20,959 bases of DNA from a virus. Every line of letters begins with the position of its first letter. Position 1 is the stretch's first letter. Location: positions 1 to 20,959 of the IMG/VR virus record IMGVR_UViG_3300032288_002779; one strand, written 5' to 3'. The position numbers and the translations under genes were made by a program. The notes below the pieces were generated by a model. The model saw nothing but the letters and a program-made list of their open reading frames with translations, did not search any database and was not told the origin of the DNA. Below, piece by piece: positions 2,111 through 13,354 of the stretch.

Positions 2111-2513
2111 AAAGGAAGCAGACCTAGTTAGAGAAAAAAGAGCAATAGATTTATTCACAAGCACGTTCGGTTGTACATACAAAAAGTTAGATCCTCAAGA
2201 TATTGATTTCAAAATATTCGACAAGGATGAAAAACTGATAGCTTACGCAGAGGTAAAAGGACGTATCCGGACACTATATGATGCGTACCCTTTACCTATA
2301 TCAGCACATAAATTGGTGAAGTTAATAGATAAACGCCTTGTGCCTCTTATAATATGGGCGTGCGAGGATGGTATTATCTATGGCAAAGCCAATGAGTTGA
2401 AAGGGGAAATAAGGTGGGGAGGAAGACCTCCCCGTATTGATTCCTATTCAGATTCAGAGATGATGGTTTATTACGATAAGCAAAAACCATTAAAGTATAT
2501 AAGGTTTATTTAG
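2100..2513 (+). CDS. PD-(D/E)XK-like nuclease (137 aa)
   Basis: The protein starts with a helix carrying E4/E6 and R11/E12 (KEADLVREKRAIDLF). It then has the strand-turn-strand core D36-F-K-I followed by a beta hairpin and A-E51-V-K53, the D...ExK pattern of the restriction-endonuclease-like fold. A positive R55/R57 follows, and later strands (LVPLIIWACEDGIIYG) fit the rest of the fold. This makes it a likely DNA nuclease, different in sequence from the VRR-NUC protein upstream. A role in host DNA degradation or in resolving replication intermediates is an inference from its neighbours. It is the last gene of the rightward arm. Its TAG stop at 2511-2513 lies inside the 3' end of the oppositely oriented giant gene. 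Confidence 0.7.
   Translation: MIFEKEADLVREKRAIDLFTSTFGCTYKKLDPQDIDFKIFDKDEKLIAYAEVKGRIRTLYDAYPLPISAHKLVKLIDKRLVPLIIWACEDGIIYGKANELKGEIRWGGRPPRIDSYSDSEMMVYYDKQKPLKYIRFI
2506..2513. other. Tail-to-tail overlap of the two transcription arms
   Basis: The + strand nuclease gene ends with TAG at 2511-2513 and the - strand giant virion gene ends with TAA at 2508-2506, so their coding ends overlap by 8 bases. There is no room between them for an intergenic terminator. I saw no convincing hairpin with a T-run directly at the junction. Confidence 0.9.
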
Positions 2514-5500
2514 AACCAAATTTTGATGACCCAAATCCTTCTTTAGATTTCTTTTGACCTTCTCCAAATTTCGATGAGCCAAATCCTCCTTTAGATTTCT
2601 TTTTAGGTACATAGTCATACATTTCATCTTTCATTTCTCTTTCTAACTTATCTTTTTCTCTCTTCAAATTTTTCTTTGCTTGCTCTTCATCATAGTCAGG
2701 AGAGTTTGGACCGTATGTTTCATCCCAAAGTTTAGGATCATATCGTTTCATATCCTCTTGATTTTTATATCCCTGTAATTTTTCTTGTTCGACTCTTTTT
2801 TTATCTGCTGCACTTTCTTCGGCATCTTTAATTCCGCTATACATATCTTTTAGTACAGCTTTTCTAATATCTTTATATAAAGGCACAAATCCTAAAGTAC
2901 CCAAAATCTCTAGAGGGATACGAACATTAATCTCTTGTTGTTGTCTATCGTATGCTTCATCATCTTCTTTTTCTTTTTCTCTAGCTTTCTTGTATAGAAA
3001 ATTAGCAGTTTTTAATGTAGGTCCAAATACGCCACCCATATTAAATAATAAGTCAGACAAATCATTTTTTTCTCCTTCTTTTTCAGGAGGAACAATAGAA
3101 TATTGAATGGCATCTTTATATGGATCGTAATCTCCTTCTCTTAAAAAATCAAGATAATTTTCATTTACACGTTCTATGCCAATATTTAACATTTGTTTAG
3201 TAGCATTACCAAAATCTCTTCCAATCACCATTGATGTAAATGTAGAAGCAAATGCTTGACCAAGTTTTTGCATAAATGATTTCTCATCTTCTTCTTCATC
3301 ATCACCACCAATAACTAATCCCATAAGACCTGTTCCTATCATCTGAGTAAGTAAAGTATAAACAACCATCCTTGTGGTAACAGCACCAAGTACTGCAGCA
3401 CCTTGTTTTTTACTTAACGAGCCATTACCCATAGCTGCCATAATACCTGTGCGAGCAGTAACATATTCAAAAATCAAAAACCTAGTCATAAAGTTGTTGA
3501 AATTATTAAATGCCGTTGGTAAAAATTTTTGATCAGGTTTTACAGTGCCTTTAAGTATTCCCATAAAAGGATTATCTGTAGCACCTGTCATAATAGCTCT
3601 TTCATCTGCAGTTGTTTTTGCTTTTTCAATAGCTTCTTTATTTTGCTCCATATACTTCTCATCATTGGATGCAATTTTATCAAAGTCTACTTTCTCACCT
3701 GTAATTTTTTTAAATTCATTTGCAAATGAACCAAACCACATTGGTCTCATTACAAGTTTATCAGGGGTTGATATTAATGCATCAGCAGTTAACTCAACTA
3801 TGTTAAGATATTTTTTACCTGACAAATTCCATATCTGTTGTATTTTATTTTTTACAGGATTTTTTGATTTAGCTCCTCTGATACCACTTGTTTGTTGAAG
3901 TATATTGGTATCTATCAATTTACCTGACAAAGTATCTGTAGGAAATATTCTATTAGTTTGTTTACTATTTACATTCTCCATAACAAGTGGAGCATCTGCA
4001 GACATAATAAATCCTTTATTTGCTACTCCTGTAGAAAATGCTTTAGGGTCAGATATAACAGCAAAGCCTATGTTCGAAATTAACTCTGACACAAATCTTG
4101 ATGTACCGGCAAGAACTGCACGATACCCTTGTTTATTTATATAATCAACAGCATCGTCAACTAATGAATTATTTACAAAAGAATTAGTTAAAACATTTTC
4201 TGTAGCTTCTTCAAAAGCAGAATCAATGGCATTAATAATTTGTCTTTTTTCCTTTGGTATTCTTCCTTGTTCTTCAAAATTTGCAATGGTTTGTTTGATA
4301 GTTTTACGAGCAGTACGAATAGGTGCAGTTAAATTATAATCCATCAAAACAAATTTTGCTCCACGTTGTGCAGAAGCAAATACATCAAAATTTAAAGGAG
4401 ACACCTTCCCTGTTCTTTCTATCAAAGATTTTGCCTTTGTAGATGGTCTCATTGAGTTATTGTAATCATTCACAAATGCAACGCCTGACGTTAAATCATT
4501 AGGTTTATGTTCGTGAAGAACATTTAGGTGCACATAATTGGATAAAGGATTAATCCTATCACCACGAATAATTGCTGCAGTGTATTCAGCTTTTTCTTTT
4601 AGAGATTCATTTATACCACGAATATCTTTAATTGCTGATTTCTCTGCTTCATTAAATGAATTGTATAATTTTTGATTATCAATGTCACCATTTGAATCAG
4701 TATACTTGTCAAGTATTTCTTGTAACATATCTGAATCTCTTTGTCCAAACTGAGACTTTCCTTCATCAATATGTTTTATAGTTGCTTTTAAATAATCAGC
4801 AGCAGGATTAACTTGTTTACTTCCCTGATTAGAATCATTTTCGAGCTGAACCATATAAGTCATCATTTTAAACTTAGACATCAATGTTTTATTTGCATTA
4901 AGTTTAAATGATTTTGCAACTCTTTCTTCTGCTTTTTCTAATATATTTTGTACTCGTTTTAAGTCTGCTTTAAATTTTGATTCTCCTTCTGATACTTTAT
5001 TTAAAATAGAATTAAATATATCTTTTGTTTTAAAATCTCCAAATAATTGATCTACATAAAACAATGGGTTCCTTCTTATCATTTCAGATATCCCTGTACG
5101 TCCTGACCTTGTAACAATAGCTTTTATTCTTGAATAAAGTCCTGATATAGGAGCAACAACCGCTCTTTTAACTGCAGAAGTTAAAGTTTTTGCATCATTA
5201 ATAGCGTTTAATTTCTCTACCATCAATTCTGCGTAGTGTGGTAAATAATTATTATTTATGTTATCAAATACTTTTAATAGATTTTTTAAATCTGTATTGT
5301 TAAGTTTTTCAATAGCATCAGTAGAAGCTAAATCTTTTAATTGTTTAGCTAATTTACGCTCATCTTGAGTAGGTAAATCTTTACTATTTACTTCTGTTTG
5401 TTTTAATGTATTTATCAATTGCTTTTTTTCTTCTGCAATCTCCTCCTCAGTCATTTTTGCTTTTTCTACTTGAGGGATAATATCTGATTTATATTTACGC

Positions 5501-8500
5501 ATTATATCAGCATCATCTTCTGTTATTTCTTCTTGCTTAACCATCTGCTTTAAAGAGGCTGCGTAATCTAATTTACCATCTTCATCAAAGACCCTGTTTT
5601 CAGATGCATTAAATCTATCTGATAACTCGTCAACTAATGACTGCTCTACTTCAATAGCTTTAAGAATATCCTGAGTGGTTTTTGTTACTTCGGATTTTTC
5701 ATCAAGAGCTAATACAGCTTGTTTTTTGCCAAACATATCAACTAATGATAAATACTTATCAAGTACAGACTCAGGTATAAGATTTGGATTTATAGAAAAT
5801 AATTTTTGTAATGGAAGAATTAACCCATCAGATATACCAATCTTAGTTCCTATATTCTTTTTTGCAGTAGTTAATAAGTTACGAGCAATATCAATCTTAT
5901 TGGCATATTCTGCATCTTCAAATACATTTGACATATACCCTACAAACTTTTCTACTGACTTTTCATTTAATACATTTACTGAAGAAAATCTTCTTAAAAT
6001 AGAAGACATTTGCTTTACAGTAACTTTGCCGGAAGAAACCAACTCTTGTATTTCTTTTGAAAGTAAATTACTAGCTTTCATAAAAGCCATCTTAGCATCT
6101 TTTGCACCCCTTGCTAAATCTTTTATTTGTTTTACAAGCCCTTGCTTCTCAGTCATTGTTATTTTGGTAACATCTTTAATGTCTCCAATAATCTTTTCTG
6201 CTGATGGAGCTGATTTTTCTTTTACTCCAAACATTTTATTTACATCACGAACTAATTTCTCACGCTGTACATCAGTTGCTCTTTCGTATACTGATGATTT
6301 TGTGACATAGTTCATCACGCTTTCTTTTATCTTTTCATTGGATGCACCACGCTCTCGTGATCTTTGAATTATACCATCTACTTCTTGCATCATCCTATCG
6401 TATCCCGGCAACACCTCTTCAGATAACTGTACTTTCTTTGCTGCCTCTATCGGCTTTTCAAATGCAGATGTTATTTCTTGTTCACTAAAATTTTTATCTT
6501 TAAGAACTTTTGTTATTGCCTCTTCAGATATACCATTAGCTCTTCCTATTTTTATTATTTCATTTATATCTGTAATCGCAGACATCCTAGCTTTAAATGC
6601 AGCATCTGAAAGTTCAGGAGCAAATTTAGCAGAAACTTCTTTTCCTGAAAATAAATCAGCTAATCCTGTATTAATAAAGTCTTCTAGTTTAATTTTAGAT
6701 ATTTTATTTATATCTAAATCTTTAAACGTAATAAATTTTTCTTGTATATATTTAAATACAGCATTCAACCAAGATTTAAATTGTGACTTTTTAGCAGCAT
6801 TAATAATGGTTGAACCTTTATTTGCCATTAATTCTACCAATGCTTCCTCTAATGCTAAATCATTATTACCATATTTTTCAATTGCTCTTTTATGTTCTTC
6901 TGTATCTTTAATTAATTCTAATCCTTTATCTAATAAATCAGTGCCTTTTTTGCCTGATTCATCTGATCTTAAAAAATCAATCCATATATGACCAAATTCG
7001 TGTATTGGAGTTTTTAAAGAAGCCATCTCAGGATTTAAATATATCTTACCATCTTTTGTAACACCAAGTATTATCTTACCATTTGACACTTGAGTTCTTA
7101 CGTCAGGACTATTGACTATATTGTTAAACTCTTCTTGTGTTGTTGAAACACTAACACTTGGAAAAGCAAATCTTAACTTGCCAATCAATAAATTTAAATC
7201 ATCTATTAGTCCTACAGAAACTTTTGATCCTTTAAATGCTTTATCAGTAAAAAATGCTCCACCTGTTTGTATTGCTACACTTTCAGGTGATGGAACTTTT
7301 CCTGCTTTATTTTCTTTAAACACCCTTGATGTTTTTGCTTTCCATTCAGGGAATACATCTATGCCGTGTGTAGGATTTTCAATTAATGCAATTGTTTTAC
7401 CTTTAGGACCAAAACCGTAATTGCCGTGTTCTACAGGTATTACTCCTCCATTTTTTACATCTATACCTACCACACTAACAACTTCACCCTGTTTAGTCTT
7501 TAACATTGATGGTTCTCCTACAGCACTATAAATCACATCAGAAGTAAATAATTTATTTTTAGAATTATCTGTACCACTTAATAATGCTTTAACAGTTGGT
7601 TTACTAGCTGTTCTTATTCCTTTTGGAGCAAAAATTAAATCATATATCATTGATCTATTGTCAAGTTTTAATTTAGACTCAACATTTCCTTTTGCTCTAT
7701 TATTAGAATCTGAAATAATTTCTTTTAAAAATTGATTAAGTGATGTTATTTTTTTCTCCTTAATAAAATCTAATATTCTTTGTGCAGATGCTGTGTCTGC
7801 TTCACTTTTTGTATTTAATTTTTCTTTAACAGATTCAATAAATGCTTTCATAGCATTTACATTATTCTTTTTAGAAAATTTTTCTACTGTTGGAAGTATC
7901 CATCTAAATACAGCCTCGTTTGAATTAACTGCTGTATCAGCCATTCTCATAATAGCCATTGGTATATGTCCATCAGGTAACTTTCCCTCAGACCAAAGTC
8001 TATCAAATAGTTCTTTATTTGATTCATATAACTTAACAGCATTGTCATATTGTGCTTGAGCACTTTCTTTATTTACACCTGCCCAAGCTGCTTCTTTATT
8101 TTTACCTAATACATTAAATAATAAACCGCCTTCAACATCCATTTCATTTCCTTCAGAGTCTTTTATTTTTCCTGCAGACAACATATCAGACATACCCGTT
8201 ATCATAGGTATACCATTAAAGGATTGTATTGGTTTCAATAAATCTTTACTTGTTTTTTCATCAATTTTAACTGTTGAATTTGATTCAGCTACCGGATTTA
8301 CTTTTAATCCTTTTTGTGAAACTTCAGGTTCAGTGAAATTAAGTTCAACTGCAGGCATATTGTTCATCTCTTTCTCAATAACCTCTGTATCAGTTGTAAG
8401 TGGTTTCTCTGTTTCTTCAGCCAACCTAAATTTAGGTTCTCCACTTGGTGTACCTAATAAAGCGTGTAACTTTTCTGCTTCAGCATCAATTTGTTCTTTT

Positions 8501-10527
8501 GTCTTTACTTCCTCTTTAACCTTAGCAGGGATGGCTTCTTTGGTCCTTGTGGTAGTGACTTCAGGTTGGACGTTTCCTTTGCCCACTTCTTGCAATCCCA
8601 CTTCGGGTTGCCCTGTGCGTAACACGCCTTCATTTGTTGTTTGTTTTTGAATGGCATCTTGTTCTGATTTTATAGTTTCTAATGTAGCTTCTTCCTGTAT
8701 TTGATTCTCTTGAATACCTTTAATCTGAGTTCTAATTGCAGCAGCTTTATCTTTACCTGTTTGGGTAGTATTGCCTTCTAACTTTCTTAGTTGTAATTCT
8801 AAATCTGTGATAGCATTTAAACTTGGTTCATTTAAATCAGGGTTCCCTTGTCTTACTTGTTCTTTAACTGAATTAGTTACAATTTTATCTTGAATTTTAA
8901 ACTCTCTTCCTTCATAATCATTTTTTATATCAATCTTAGTTTGTTGTAATTGATCAGGAGTCATTGTATTAATAAGCTCATCCACTTGTTCTACAGTAGC
9001 TTTAGCACCATTTACTTTATAAGATGGTTTAGTTAATCTTGCCTGAAGTGTTGACCTGATACCACCCGGTAACTCAGCAAGACCTTCTAATGCAATATCA
9101 GATACATCCATTTCTTGACCAATAGCACCTCTTGCAGCAGCTTCACCTGCTGAACCACCTACTGCTTCAATACCTGCACCTGCTGCTGTAGCTCTTGTAA
9201 TTGCTCCTTTAGTAACTGCACCTGTTGCTGATTTTGCTGCAGATTTGCCTATTATTTTAGCACCAACTCCTGATGCTAATTTACCTGTAAATGCATCAAC
9301 CGTACCAATAATTGCACCTCTTGCAATGGCTTTATTTCTTATACTTTGTAATTTCTCAGGATTTTCAAGAATGGCTTTTACATTCTCTTTAGTCATTTCT
9401 TTTCCATTCAATTCATCTGTAAGTAATTCTCCAAATGTAGATCCCATTTCAACAACACTACTTGCTAATCCAAATGCATAAGGGATTGAAGCTTGTGCTC
9501 CTGCCAATGCCCCTGCTGCTGTACCTGCTACAGGAACAACTGCTGTACCTCCTGCTGCACCAATACCTGCCCCTGCAACAATTGCTGCTGCACCTGCTTT
9601 TAATGCATCTGTATTTGTAGCCATTGCTACTAAAGAACTTGAAAGAACTTCAGGAATAACTGTTGGATTTTTCACTAAACCTTTTATTACACCCCAAAAA
9701 CCTTTACCTTCTTCTTCATAAACTTTTTGGTAATCTAACATTTCTTGAGAAGGTCCCATTAATTGAGCATTCTTATTTGCATCAATAAATTTTTGTATTT
9801 GTTCAGGAGTAGCTTTTGTTCCTTGTAATAATAAATTATCAGCTTCTTGTGCAGCAGTCCCTTGTCTATAACCTGAAGCCACACTACGTGCAATATCGTC
9901 AACAAAATCACCTATTCCAACAGGAGAAATTTTATCAAATCCTCTTAATACATCACCAAATGCTCCTGTAAAATAATCTGCTTCTTCTTTTTCTTCTTCA
10001 ACTTTTACAAATTCACCGTTAGCTAACATTTCATCAAACTTAGCTCCGTAGTAACCTTTTAATTCTTGTTCAGTTGCTATGGCTCCATTTGCTGTTTTAT
10101 ATTTAGCAGAAGGGGTAGGTTGTTTTATTTTTACTGTACCTGCTTGCTCATCAGGAGTTAACGCATTGTAATTAGGATCTGCTATCTTTTGATTAAAAAC
10201 TCCAAGTGGCGGTTGGTCCATTTGTTGTCTAGTATCAGGAACGTCAGTTGGTCTAACAGGAATTGCATTACTTTGAGAAGATTGCGAAACCGAAGAAGTA
10301 TTTTCCGAAGGAGACCCCGTATAAGGTTGAACTCCGGGTATTGCGCTTGGTGCTTGCTCTTGCTGAGGAGCCATTGGAAGTATGGGGACTTTTTTTTTTA
10401 ATTCTGTACCATCTTCAATTTTTACAAACGCCCCACTAGCTAACATTTCATCAAACTTTGCTCCATAATAACTTCTTAACTCTTGTTCAGTAGCTATAGT
10501 GCCGTTTGCTGTTTTATATTTATTCAT
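2506..10527 (-). CDS. Giant virion / ejected polyvalent-type protein with zincin motif (2673 aa)
   Basis: No full-length homologue is recognised. Visible layout: two copies of a ~35-residue motif (4-38 and 143-177) joined by a Gln/Pro/Ser-rich linker; a Gly/Ala hydrophobic stretch (about 311-355); a low-complexity charged region (about 500-750); a globular region (about 760-1105) beginning IQSFNGIPMITG; a zincin-type motif H1176-E-F-G-H1180 with acidic residues E1227/E1228/E1232 downstream that could supply the third metal ligand; about 1000 residues of helical, Lys/Glu-rich sequence; a second hydrophobic segment (about 2377-2403) before an acidic DDEEEDE run; and a basic tail with repeated SSKFG. 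This multi-domain architecture fits the phage 'polyvalent' proteins that are packaged and injected with DNA. Being last and largest in the late operon after two internal-virion-like genes suggests a gp16-like ejection or crAss-like cargo protein. Peptidase activity is predicted only. A virion RNA polymerase is unlikely, as no DxDGD motif was found. Confidence 0.8.
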   Translation of the reverse strand: MNKYKTANGTIATEQELRSYYGAKFDEMLASGAFVKIEDGTELKKKVPILPMAPQQEQAPSAIPGVQPYTGSPSENTSSVSQSSQSNAIPVRPTDVPDTRQQMDQPPLGVFNQKIADPNYNALTPDEQAGTVKIKQPTPSAKYKTANGAIATEQELKGYYGAKFDEMLANGEFVKVEEEKEEADYFTGAFGDVLRGFDKISPVGIGDFVDDIARSVASGYRQGTAAQEADNLLLQGTKATPEQIQKFIDANKNAQLMGPSQEMLDYQKVYEEEGKGFWGVIKGLVKNPTVIPEVLSSSLVAMATNTDALKAGAAAIVAGAGIGAAGGTAVVPVAGTAAGALAGAQASIPYAFGLASSVVEMGSTFGELLTDELNGKEMTKENVKAILENPEKLQSIRNKAIARGAIIGTVDAFTGKLASGVGAKIIGKSAAKSATGAVTKGAITRATAAGAGIEAVGGSAGEAAARGAIGQEMDVSDIALEGLAELPGGIRSTLQARLTKPSYKVNGAKATVEQVDELINTMTPDQLQQTKIDIKNDYEGREFKIQDKIVTNSVKEQVRQGNPDLNEPSLNAITDLELQLRKLEGNTTQTGKDKAAAIRTQIKGIQENQIQEEATLETIKSEQDAIQKQTTNEGVLRTGQPEVGLQEVGKGNVQPEVTTTRTKEAIPAKVKEEVKTKEQIDAEAEKLHALLGTPSGEPKFRLAEETEKPLTTDTEVIEKEMNNMPAVELNFTEPEVSQKGLKVNPVAESNSTVKIDEKTSKDLLKPIQSFNGIPMITGMSDMLSAGKIKDSEGNEMDVEGGLLFNVLGKNKEAAWAGVNKESAQAQYDNAVKLYESNKELFDRLWSEGKLPDGHIPMAIMRMADTAVNSNEAVFRWILPTVEKFSKKNNVNAMKAFIESVKEKLNTKSEADTASAQRILDFIKEKKITSLNQFLKEIISDSNNRAKGNVESKLKLDNRSMIYDLIFAPKGIRTASKPTVKALLSGTDNSKNKLFTSDVIYSAVGEPSMLKTKQGEVVSVVGIDVKNGGVIPVEHGNYGFGPKGKTIALIENPTHGIDVFPEWKAKTSRVFKENKAGKVPSPESVAIQTGGAFFTDKAFKGSKVSVGLIDDLNLLIGKLRFAFPSVSVSTTQEEFNNIVNSPDVRTQVSNGKIILGVTKDGKIYLNPEMASLKTPIHEFGHIWIDFLRSDESGKKGTDLLDKGLELIKDTEEHKRAIEKYGNNDLALEEALVELMANKGSTIINAAKKSQFKSWLNAVFKYIQEKFITFKDLDINKISKIKLEDFINTGLADLFSGKEVSAKFAPELSDAAFKARMSAITDINEIIKIGRANGISEEAITKVLKDKNFSEQEITSAFEKPIEAAKKVQLSEEVLPGYDRMMQEVDGIIQRSRERGASNEKIKESVMNYVTKSSVYERATDVQREKLVRDVNKMFGVKEKSAPSAEKIIGDIKDVTKITMTEKQGLVKQIKDLARGAKDAKMAFMKASNLLSKEIQELVSSGKVTVKQMSSILRRFSSVNVLNEKSVEKFVGYMSNVFEDAEYANKIDIARNLLTTAKKNIGTKIGISDGLILPLQKLFSINPNLIPESVLDKYLSLVDMFGKKQAVLALDEKSEVTKTTQDILKAIEVEQSLVDELSDRFNASENRVFDEDGKLDYAASLKQMVKQEEITEDDADIMRKYKSDIIPQVEKAKMTEEEIAEEKKQLINTLKQTEVNSKDLPTQDERKLAKQLKDLASTDAIEKLNNTDLKNLLKVFDNINNNYLPHYAELMVEKLNAINDAKTLTSAVKRAVVAPISGLYSRIKAIVTRSGRTGISEMIRRNPLFYVDQLFGDFKTKDIFNSILNKVSEGESKFKADLKRVQNILEKAEERVAKSFKLNANKTLMSKFKMMTYMVQLENDSNQGSKQVNPAADYLKATIKHIDEGKSQFGQRDSDMLQEILDKYTDSNGDIDNQKLYNSFNEAEKSAIKDIRGINESLKEKAEYTAAIIRGDRINPLSNYVHLNVLHEHKPNDLTSGVAFVNDYNNSMRPSTKAKSLIERTGKVSPLNFDVFASAQRGAKFVLMDYNLTAPIRTARKTIKQTIANFEEQGRIPKEKRQIINAIDSAFEEATENVLTNSFVNNSLVDDAVDYINKQGYRAVLAGTSRFVSELISNIGFAVISDPKAFSTGVANKGFIMSADAPLVMENVNSKQTNRIFPTDTLSGKLIDTNILQQTSGIRGAKSKNPVKNKIQQIWNLSGKKYLNIVELTADALISTPDKLVMRPMWFGSFANEFKKITGEKVDFDKIASNDEKYMEQNKEAIEKAKTTADERAIMTGATDNPFMGILKGTVKPDQKFLPTAFNNFNNFMTRFLIFEYVTARTGIMAAMGNGSLSKKQGAAVLGAVTTRMVVYTLLTQMIGTGLMGLVIGGDDEEEDEKSFMQKLGQAFASTFTSMVIGRDFGNATKQMLNIGIERVNENYLDFLREGDYDPYKDAIQYSIVPPEKEGEKNDLSDLLFNMGGVFGPTLKTANFLYKKAREKEKEDDEAYDRQQQEINVRIPLEILGTLGFVPLYKDIRKAVLKDMYSGIKDAEESAADKKRVEQEKLQGYKNQEDMKRYDPKLWDETYGPNSPDYDEEQAKKNLKREKDKLEREMKDEMYDYVPKKKSKGGFGSSKFGEGQKKSKEGFGSSKFGSK
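2516..2603 (-). repeat. 48-base tandem repeat encoding the SSKFG tail of the giant protein
   Basis: Two 40-base units at 2516-2555 and 2564-2603 differ at only three positions and are offset by 48 bases (16 codons). They encode KKSK-G/E-GFGSSKFG twice, at residues about 2643-2655 and 2659-2671. The unit keeps the reading frame, so copy-number change would lengthen or shorten the basic Gly/Ser/Lys/Phe tail without breaking the gene. Confidence 0.9.
9997..10518 (-). repeat. Duplicated 105-base motif at the N-terminus of the giant protein
   Basis: The segments 10414-10518 and 9997-10101 encode near-identical ~35-residue units (YKTANG-x-IATEQEL ... YYGAKFDEMLA-x-G-x-FVK). They are similar at the DNA level too, which points to a duplication rather than convergence. 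The copies are separated by about 104 residues of Gln-, Pro- and Ser-rich linker. The unit looks like a small helical module and may be a virion-binding or packaging tag; that role is a guess. Confidence 0.88.
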
Positions 10528-10539
10528 ATTTATAAATTA

Positions 10540-12366
10540 TTAATCTATACAATTTCCAAATTTATCTCTACCCTTACCACTCTTACAAGGTGGTAGTTGA
10601 TGTCTTTCTATAAATTGTTGTAATCCTTCAACTGCATCTTTTGATTCTTTTGTTGATAAATCTGTATCAAAAGGATATGTTTTTCCATCAGGAGCAGTAA
10701 TTAAAATACTGTTTCCAAATGTTCCTCCTGTATCTTTAACCACAAATCCTTGAGGCAAAATATCATCAAGTTTTACTTTTGCATCTTGTGATTTTGCAGA
10801 GAATATGTCAGGAGTTACTACAATTTGTTGTACTTTAGGAGCTGCTCCTTGCCTAATTGATTTAATATCTGTATAATCAGTATCTGCTATTGCTCCGTAT
10901 CCTGTTCCACCACCACCTGCTTTTACTGCTTGGTCTCTATCTACTACACCGTGAAGTTCAACTCCTTTTGCTGCAAAATCAGCTATGCTGATTGGGTTTT
11001 TATCTTTATCAAAATAAGAAATATCTCTATTTTTAGTAGGATCAGCATAAGTAAGTTTAATAATACCCGGAGAACTTGCATCAAGACCAATTAATCCTGC
11101 TTCTTGTGCTTTTGGTGTTCCTAATAATATATCTGTTGCTGCTTTTTTCTCTGCTGCTGTTTTACCTGTATATATTTGATTCCAAGCACCTGCTGCAGCC
11201 ATACTATCTTTCTTATCTTGACCTGCTTTAAATTTATATTCAGGTTCCGGAGGTGCGTAAGGAATAGTTGAAGTAACTTTAATATTTCTTTCTTGGTCAA
11301 ACTTATTTAGTAATGATGTTCTAATCCAATCCTCTGCTTCTTTCTTTTGTTCTTTATAATGTGGTGCATTTTCATCTAAAGTAACAAGTCCTGTTAAAGG
11401 GTCAACTTTTTTAAGTATTTTAGTCTTATCTGCTTTTGCTATATTTTCATCCCAAATATAAGAATCAGCATTATATTTACCTCCTAAGTTCTCAGTTAAT
11501 ATAGAACCAACTTGATATGGCGTTGGCAACCAAGCTTGTATTTGTTGAGTTAGTGATAAATTAAAATCATCAATTACTTTTTTATAATCTCCTAATTTAC
11601 CTTTTAATTCAGGGTGTTCTTTTTCAAGATTGTCTAATGCACCAACTCCCATTAGTTCAACAATACTACCTGCTTTTGAGTTATTAGCTATTTGATATAT
11701 GTAATCTTTTTGAGTTCCAACTGTAGGTACCCATTTGTTCATTATTTCCTCAATTTGTAATGTAGGGATTTTTTGAACAATTTGTCCCATTAAAACATTT
11801 ACAGGAGTACTCTTTTTTAAAACACGAACAGTCTTGCCATCTATTACTTTATCTTCATACAATCCCATACTAATATTAGCAGATAAAGGATCTATTATAG
11901 CTTTTGAATCTTTAAAAATTTTATATGCTTCTACATCAGCTTGATTGGATATATTTAACGCTTGTATTTTTCCTTTTTGATATAAATCTATTGTATTTTC
12001 TCTTTCAGCTTGAAGTGTTTTTTGCAAATCAAATAATATCTTTGTTTGAGAGTTATAATTTGCATCCCTTAATGTATAATCTCTAAGTTTCATTTTACCA
12101 CTTTTCAAAAGTCTATTATCAATTAATTTTTGCTCCATCATATCGTGAGCAAAATTATTAGTGGTAGCATTACCATCTTGCCATTTACCTTGTGGGGCAT
12201 TAGCAAGTTGTTCCATATCATCTTGGAATGCTTTTTGGATAGCAGCTTTTTTTTCTTCCCTAATCTTTGTCTCATCATCAAGCATAGTAGTAATGTCCCT
12301 ACCTACTTCTGCCCAATTTACTTGACTTTCTACTGTTCGTTCTACGTATTTATAAGCTGTTGACAT
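10540..12366 (-). CDS. Putative internal virion / ejection protein (608 aa), gp15-like by position
   Basis: This is a 608-aa hydrophilic protein with no recognised domain. The first ~140 residues are charged and helical (EEKKAAIQKAFQDDMEQL, LQKTLQAERENTIDLYQKG) and probably coiled coil. The middle (about 150-370) is mixed. The C-terminal third is beta-like, with ILITAPDGKTYPFDTD, and ends in a short Cys-containing tail (PPCKSGKGRDKFGNCID). No signal peptide, membrane segment or catalytic motif is evident. It lies between a 182-aa hydrophobic/helical protein and the 2673-aa protein, an order and size trend matching T7 gp14-gp15-gp16, so I infer an ejection protein that forms a conduit or rides in the capsid. 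It starts after an A/T-only leader and ends 12 bases before the giant gene. An ordinary tail or capsid accessory protein is an alternative. Confidence 0.75.
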   Translation of the reverse strand: MSTAYKYVERTVESQVNWAEVGRDITTMLDDETKIREEKKAAIQKAFQDDMEQLANAPQGKWQDGNATTNNFAHDMMEQKLIDNRLLKSGKMKLRDYTLRDANYNSQTKILFDLQKTLQAERENTIDLYQKGKIQALNISNQADVEAYKIFKDSKAIIDPLSANISMGLYEDKVIDGKTVRVLKKSTPVNVLMGQIVQKIPTLQIEEIMNKWVPTVGTQKDYIYQIANNSKAGSIVELMGVGALDNLEKEHPELKGKLGDYKKVIDDFNLSLTQQIQAWLPTPYQVGSILTENLGGKYNADSYIWDENIAKADKTKILKKVDPLTGLVTLDENAPHYKEQKKEAEDWIRTSLLNKFDQERNIKVTSTIPYAPPEPEYKFKAGQDKKDSMAAAGAWNQIYTGKTAAEKKAATDILLGTPKAQEAGLIGLDASSPGIIKLTYADPTKNRDISYFDKDKNPISIADFAAKGVELHGVVDRDQAVKAGGGGTGYGAIADTDYTDIKSIRQGAAPKVQQIVVTPDIFSAKSQDAKVKLDDILPQGFVVKDTGGTFGNSILITAPDGKTYPFDTDLSTKESKDAVEGLQQFIERHQLPPCKSGKGRDKFGNCID

Positions 12367-12393: not shown

Positions 12394-12942
12394 TTATCCA
12401 AATAAAGGTGCTGCTTTATATAACTGTTTTCCAAAACTTGTAAGACCTTCCATACCTTGTTTCAATGATCTAGCACTTAATTCTTCAGTATTTGCTGCTT
12501 TTAATTGTTGACCTGCAACTTCTTCCAAATCTAATTGAGTACCTACATCACGAAGTCTACTTTCTTCTTGAGCACTTGCTTTTGCAAGATCACTTAATTC
12601 TTGACCCATTAATGATCTTACACCGGCTTGTGCATCATTCATACTCATTTGTATTCTTCCTGCAGTTGCTGATGCACCTCTTTCACTTTCTACACCTGCT
12701 TGTACAGCTAAAGCACCTTGAGAAAGAAGAGCTTCTCTTTGTAACTCATATGGTTCTTTTTGTATAGATAATGTGTCATAATAATTTACTTCAAGTTTTT
12801 GCTTAGCTGCTTGCATAGCTCTATCAGCATCAGCCTCAGCTTGACGTTGTGCTTTTTTTTGCTTACCTGCTTGTACAAATGACATAGCACTTGACCCCAC
12901 TGCTGCTGTCATACCTATTATTGCTGCTGTTGTAATTGCCAT
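12394..12942 (-). CDS. Putative internal virion protein, gp14-like (182 aa)
   Basis: This 182-aa protein begins with a hydrophobic Ala/Ile/Thr stretch (residues 2-24). A basic turn follows (KQKKAQRQ), then long Ala/Gln/Glu-rich helices up to about residue 160 and a Gly/Phe-containing end (KAAPLFG). The same layout, a hydrophobic N-terminus then Ala/Gln-rich amphipathic helices in about 190 residues, is seen in T7 gp14, the outer-membrane-side ejection protein; similarity here is of architecture and composition, not demonstrated homology. The gene starts one base after the acetyltransferase stop and precedes the 608-aa gene by 27 bases, the largest gap in the late operon. It could insert in the host envelope on ejection. 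Confidence 0.72.
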   Translation of the reverse strand: MAITTAAIIGMTAAVGSSAMSFVQAGKQKKAQRQAEADADRAMQAAKQKLEVNYYDTLSIQKEPYELQREALLSQGALAVQAGVESERGASATAGRIQMSMNDAQAGVRSLMGQELSDLAKASAQEESRLRDVGTQLDLEEVAGQQLKAANTEELSARSLKQGMEGLTSFGKQLYKAAPLFG

Positions 12943-12943
12943 A

Positions 12944-13354
12944 TTATAAAATTTTAACCATTTCTGTTGTATAAGTACTTCCTTTTATATATCCTATATC
13001 TTGGTATATATTTATAAGACTTTCGCTTTTAATTAATGCGTATATGTATTTATTTCCTGCTTTTTCACAAATACTTGTAAGTGATGATACCAATAACTTA
13101 ATGGCATCCTTTCTTTGTGGTTTTTTCGTATATTCCTTGTTCGATATTATCCAATCTACCCAAGCTGCTTTTGAATTGGTTATGTACATAAACCCTGCAC
13201 ATACCGGCACATCTTGGTCAAATACTATAATACCACCCTTCCCATTATCAGGGAGAAAATCTCTTTTAGGAGGTACCCATCCCCACTGTTTCCACCATAC
13301 CACAAGAATCTCATCATAATCATTTTCGTTCAGTTCTCGTATATATAACTCCAT
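12944..13354 (-). CDS. GNAT-like N-acetyltransferase (136 aa)
   Basis: The fold order of a GNAT enzyme can be followed: an N-terminal strand and helix (YIRELNENDYDEILVVW), a central strand pair with the V-x-AGF-x-Y-x-TNS block (residues 51-61), a strand WVDWIIS (65-71), the helix after R81 (AIKLLVSSL), a strand YIYALI and a C-terminal N114-I-Y-x-x-x-GY motif. The loop that normally binds the acetyl-CoA pyrophosphate (Q/R-x-x-G-x-G/A) reads KKPQRKDA and lacks the glycines, so activity or cofactor use may differ. Small GNAT-like proteins of this W-rich type are familiar in phages of this kind, often among structural genes. The substrate is unknown; acetylation of a virion or host protein is possible. 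It follows the 261-aa tail gene by 12 bases. Confidence 0.72.
   Translation of the reverse strand: MELYIRELNENDYDEILVVWWKQWGWVPPKRDFLPDNGKGGIIVFDQDVPVCAGFMYITNSKAAWVDWIISNKEYTKKPQRKDAIKLLVSSLTSICEKAGNKYIYALIKSESLINIYQDIGYIKGSTYTTEMVKIL

Follow-up and report, generated by a model that had tools for sequence, protein, structure and literature searches.

A conserved zincin-like domain in an exchangeable cassette of a giant virion-type phage protein

Zincin-like MPTase domains in the polyvalent proteins of phages and plasmids were described in 12 clades by Iyer et al. in 2017, and no other domain is reported to be as frequent in these proteins (PMC5512222). Such zincins may cut the protein that carries them or proteins of the host. 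The window, 20,959 nucleotides of viral DNA (IMG/VR record IMGVR_UViG_3300032288_002779, positions 1 to 20,959), comes from a tailed phage that probably infects Bacteroidota. It holds an ORF for a giant 2673-aa protein (2506..10527, minus strand), and within it we confirmed an HEFGH motif at residues 1176–1180 (6988..7002, minus strand), predicted to supply two zinc-ligand His residues and a catalytic Glu. A reading made from the letters alone had taken this motif for part of a real zincin of the polyvalent-protein type rather than a product of chance. HEFGH is the sole HExxH in the protein, whose whole length met no family in a Pfam search, and a single motif in a protein of this size is what coincidence might produce. 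However, an HExxH occurs in just 0.42% of 5000 composition-preserving shuffles of the giant protein, and 0.0044 are expected by chance in a protein with that composition. Together with the invariance of the motif over 79 domains, down to about 26–30% identity, and a dN/dS of 0.07 for the surrounding cassette, these values already contradict a chance motif, which we give practically no weight. Farther along the protein, residues 1641–2622 match PHROG 32588, a family of unknown function.

The conservation data come from the window and 78 further distinct domains, which were collected in two profile scans of viral contigs and from earlier loci. N1165, P1166, T1173, H1176, E1177, H1180, W1182, G1202, E1228 and G1238 are invariant in 79/79 domains, so that the motif residues and the distal Glu all withstand the check. 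The sequence-only reading had offered E1227, E1228 and E1232 as candidates for a third zinc ligand; all three sit where it placed them, but E1227 is kept in 61 of the 79 domains and E1232 in 42. As the sole invariant one of the three, E1228 (6844..6846, minus strand) is the probable third ligand. HEFGH[IV]W served as one pattern in the viral scans, while E1228 lies outside the scan patterns, and the HExxH therefore needed a check that is independent of the motif. With patterns taken from residues 701–1050 only, 14 loci were recovered; HExxH is kept in all 13 that are complete through the site (HEFGH in 11, HEFAH in one and HETGH in one), the 14th being cut off before it. Between the window and its relative L003, dN/dS is 0.073 for the cassette and 0.12 for the zincin part, as against 0.38–0.40 in the N-terminus and residues 1336–1540. 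The cassette is under strong purifying selection.

The zincin-like domain, delimited by our alignment (A3) and an AlphaFold2 model, covers residues about 1090–1335 (6523..7260, minus strand), and at about residue 1335 similarity to zincin-lacking relatives drops sharply. The model, built with 74 sequences, has a mean pLDDT of 81.6 and a pTM of 0.81, with local values of about 95–98 near the motif. Its elements run helix-strand-helix-strand-strand (KIYL)-helix (HEFGH)-...-helix (E1228). The strand and helices that had been proposed are all there: an edge strand, KIYLN (residues 1161–1165, with the model strand at 1161–1164; 7033..7047, minus strand), which ends in the invariant N1165, precedes the predicted active-site helix at residues 1172–1187, which carries HEFGH, and a later helix at residues 1222–1247 carries E1228. 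This predicted order fits that of a zincin with high local confidence, and the conserved His and Glu residues of HExxH and the conserved distal Glu on a second helix are features of the zincin superfamily. The structure prediction agrees with the proposal in part but lacks a significant fold match in the PDB, as a Foldseek search of the model returned no PDB match at E below 1. Foldseek did match giant phage proteins, that of Tenacibaculum phage Gundel_1 at E 1e-8 and, with less support, those of crAss-like phages, Flavobacterium elemoC and Cellulophaga phi17:2.

At their cut-offs, Pfam, NCBIfam and PHROG assign no family to the domain, and its relationships were followed by profile comparison. 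By hhalign, the window zincin (A3) is firmly tied to a zincin of sister phages (A7; E 3.9e-7 in an alignment of 181 columns that takes in the E1228 region), and it also matches the A6 zincin (E 8.9e-5); against A3, no reversed profile and none of 11 unrelated blocks did better than E 0.086. The C1 region of the phage N4 virion polymerase (vRNAP) aligns with A3 in the register of the motif at E 2.1e-4 over 52 columns, though one control in which A3 takes no part, N4 C1 against a block of N4 C2, is equally good (E 2e-4), and we therefore keep the N4 relationship as suggestive only. That control corresponds to a likeness between N4 C1 and the first 250 aa of its C2 (L206:127-4257), which may be chance or internal duplication. 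A likeness to anthrax lethal factor, seen with a 4-sequence profile (E 0.26), was gone with the 74-sequence profile and was discarded. Giant proteins with the window-type zincin are also contained in bacterial genome bins (Dyadobacter, Aquimarina, Spirosoma, Runella and others), where they are presumably proviral; two more, in bins labelled Aenigmatarchaeota (L256) and Aliivibrio (L255), probably lie on mis-binned phage contigs. In a Tannerella bin, a zincin of the window family (L261:9902-10630) runs through in-frame TGA codons, one of them at the position of the invariant W1182 (HELGHL[TGA]), which suggests a recoded phage that reads TGA as Trp.

Set beside known systems, the domain resembles the polyvalent-protein MPTases (PMC5512222) in having, after short strands, an HExxH helix and a distal helix Glu, and in its place inside a giant multidomain phage protein whose sister slots hold LPD23 and a weak ART-PolyVal match. 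It differs from them in that HExxHxW is invariant and that a dedicated partner domain lies upstream, and in matching no family at cut-off. With N4 vRNAP C1 (Schitoviridae) it shares an HExxH that follows an IYL strand in the T-x-(I/L)-HE register, a large C-terminal region after the motif and the position of the giant protein as last of a trio. Unlike N4 vRNAP, the giant protein contains no T7-like RNA polymerase domain in the Pfam search, and its C-terminus and partner genes have no detectable homology to those of N4; moreover, C1 is a conserved part of the N4 architecture, whereas the window cassette is accessory. A structural protein of Gundel_1 (Pachyviridae) carries a zincin of the same family (32.5% identity, E 6e-10) with the HEFGH motif, the EEALA helix and the trio order, but by profile it has neither the partner domain nor the C-terminal backbone of the window protein. 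The structural protein of the Flavobacterium elemo phages has a C-terminal backbone about 24% related and the same trio order, but an A7-type zincin, a distant relative, in place of the window's. Zincins in polyvalent proteins are an established kind (PMC5512222), to which the window clade adds an undescribed partner domain and an unusually clear exchange slot.

This slot holds a cassette of ~640 aa (residues about 700–1335) in which the zincin follows the partner domain (residues about 735–1060; 7348..8325, minus strand). The partner domain is modelled with a pLDDT of 93.8 and a pTM of 0.90, and its model has no significant fold match in the PDB. It is never found without the zincin (58 of 58 proteins carry both), and the zincin occurs without it in 32 proteins. 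Just before the slot lies a conserved joint (residues about 615–674; 8506..8685, minus strand), which is kept in most relatives with a differing neighbor region, elemoA included. After the slot, the C-terminal backbone (residues 1336–2673; 2506..6522, minus strand) is 71% identical to that of L002, which lacks the zincin. In the zincin-bearing L003, whose structural genes and cassette match the window at about 90% DNA identity, residues 1585–2586 are missing and replaced by an unrelated block, and the middle-gene product is 41% identical to that of the window. This comparison and those with the closest backbones show that cassette and backbone recombine independently. Among the closest C-termini (up to 82% identity), the window alone bears this zincin. 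Among 45 relatives found with the whole giant protein, the window-type zincin is present in four, four others have two other zincins each, and about 36, at least one of which (L030) ends before the slot, show neither an HExxH nor a zincin profile match. Slots of sister phages contain LPD23 and SprT-like domains above cut-off and ART-PolyVal-like and GNAT-type matches below Pfam cut-offs; the giant protein thus has the variable effector-type domains within a shared multidomain architecture that mark polyvalent proteins. Because close relatives fill the slot with other modules, the zincin module looks like exchangeable cargo for delivery into the host more than like a constant component of the virion. 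Its conservation, the purifying selection, the matches to phage-zincin profiles and the polyvalent-type domains of the sister slots bear out the proposal of a real zincin of this type.

Several variants of the architecture were noted in passing. In L050:4579-13674 a 1766-aa protein terminates with the cassette, and two separate ORFs of 165 aa and 1098 aa come next, both unrelated to the other giant proteins. MW202828 (L047:12499-24078) has two HEFGH sites in a 3859-aa protein, the second belonging to the window zincin family; the annotation of this protein as "reticulocyte binding/rhoptry protein" is evidently a misnomer. The N-terminus of the window's giant protein (9994–10521, minus strand) contains two near-identical copies of ~37 aa (residues 3–37 and 142–178; KYKTANG.IATEQEL..YYGAKFDEMLA...), to both of which L003 aligns, and this repeat is a possible docking motif. 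In the C-terminal tail (2506–2590, minus strand), GFGSSKFG occurs twice in a lysine-rich context.

The giant protein is the third and largest member of a trio that begins with a 182-aa protein (12394..12942, minus strand; PHROG 13764, virion structural protein, E 4e-15) and continues with a 608-aa protein (10540..12366, minus strand). Each of these two has homologues that precede the giant gene in 65 of the 79 zincin loci, several of the remaining loci being cut off by contig ends. The small/medium/giant order (182, 608 and 2673 aa) recurs in N4, T7, Gundel_1, elemoA and MW202828, and the layout can be likened to gp52, gp51 and gp50 of N4 and to gp14, gp15 and gp16 of T7. In Gundel_1 and elemoA the genes of the trio are annotated as structural, as are the relatives of the giant protein in Gundel_1 and the Flavobacterium elemo phages. 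Gene order and annotated relatives together suggest that the giant protein is of the virion type. The N4 structure paper describes the polymerase as expelled into the host along with two further ejection proteins (PMC12633501). When the trio and the C-terminus were compared with the N4 and T7 ejection proteins, hhalign returned no E value below 0.08 for any pair, and reversed controls scored just as well; since no sequence homology to those proteins was found and only size and order agree, we infer the term "ejection protein" from the layout. Once overall relatedness was taken into account, the 608-aa protein and the C-terminal backbone covaried modestly (partial rank correlation 0.37 over 465 non-independent pairs), and this was left unused. 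A 136-aa protein among the virion genes (12944–13354, minus strand) matches PHROG 17252, of unknown function, and has homologues in the same place in many related loci; its MW202828 counterpart is annotated as an N-terminal acetyltransferase subunit.

Our preferred reading of these observations is that the zincin is a host-directed, virion-delivered and exchangeable peptidase of the polyvalent-protein type, and we hold this to be about as likely as not. The giant protein, as the largest member of an ejection trio, would be packaged, would reach the cell interior together with the DNA or before it and would then refold. H1176, H1180 and E1228 would hold zinc and E1177 would activate water, so that the zincin could cut one or more host proteins and thereby favor infection; the partner domain would select the substrate or present it. 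A host-acting accessory enzyme fits because the module is mobile, is strongly constrained and shares its slot with effector-type domains. Against an injected peptidase, ejection through a narrow tail demands unfolding and refolding. Carried further, though more doubtfully, the proposal would make partner and zincin an undescribed two-part injected protease effector, traded among the giant ejection proteins of Bacteroidota phages, that destroys a specific host protein, perhaps one of defense, early in infection.

The zincin might instead cut the giant protein itself, be it ahead of packaging, inside the head or once injected, and so free the neighboring domains. Autoproteolysis has been proposed for such domains, including that of P1 DdrB, which would be processed before packaging (PMC5512222), and the window zincin lies at a joint between separately evolving blocks. 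However, most relatives with the same backbone lack any zincin, and processing is therefore not generally needed; self-processing had been suggested earlier, and its obligatory form is thereby weakened. N4 vRNAP likewise carries an HExxH domain and goes into the virion unprocessed (PMC5512222), and in L050 the cassette stands at the end of the protein. We consider self-processing rather unlikely. Split genes in L031, L043, L037, L079 and L082 were examined as possible cleavage at domain joints and set aside as frameshifts, given their overlapping frames and indels and, for L079, near-identical intact copies.

It is improbable, to our judgment, that the site is a metal site with no peptidase function, either structural zinc or the site of a different HExxH enzyme, for example a HExxH hydroxylase that depends on alpha-ketoglutarate. 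HExxH is found in such enzymes too according to the N4 structure paper (PMC12633501), two members out of 74 have weak TIGR04267 matches (best E 0.005), and no PDB zincin fold was matched; yet the catalytic-type E1177 and the distal helix E1228 are both invariant, the pattern of zincins that use a distal Glu as ligand, and similarity runs to SprT/M78-like phage zincins. More improbable still is an entry enzyme, a peptidase that works on the envelope or on peptides of the cell wall while the DNA passes. An endolysin domain is annotated in T7 gp16, whose gene holds the corresponding position, but no cell-wall hydrolase family was matched here, and an entry step should be conserved more evenly than a variable slot. 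On whether such zincins cut their own chain or the host, close relatives that share the backbone but differ in whether they carry the module constitute a natural experiment, and the module offers one catalytic Glu for mutation and a conserved partner domain whose fold matches none in the PDB.

Finally, two plus-strand ORFs elsewhere in the window were assessed by eye only: an 80-aa ORF (1169–1411) resembles VRR-NUC-type nucleases, and a 170-aa ORF (1423–1935) contains a stretch like the DnaA C-terminus, SIGRFLRKDHSTIISYM.
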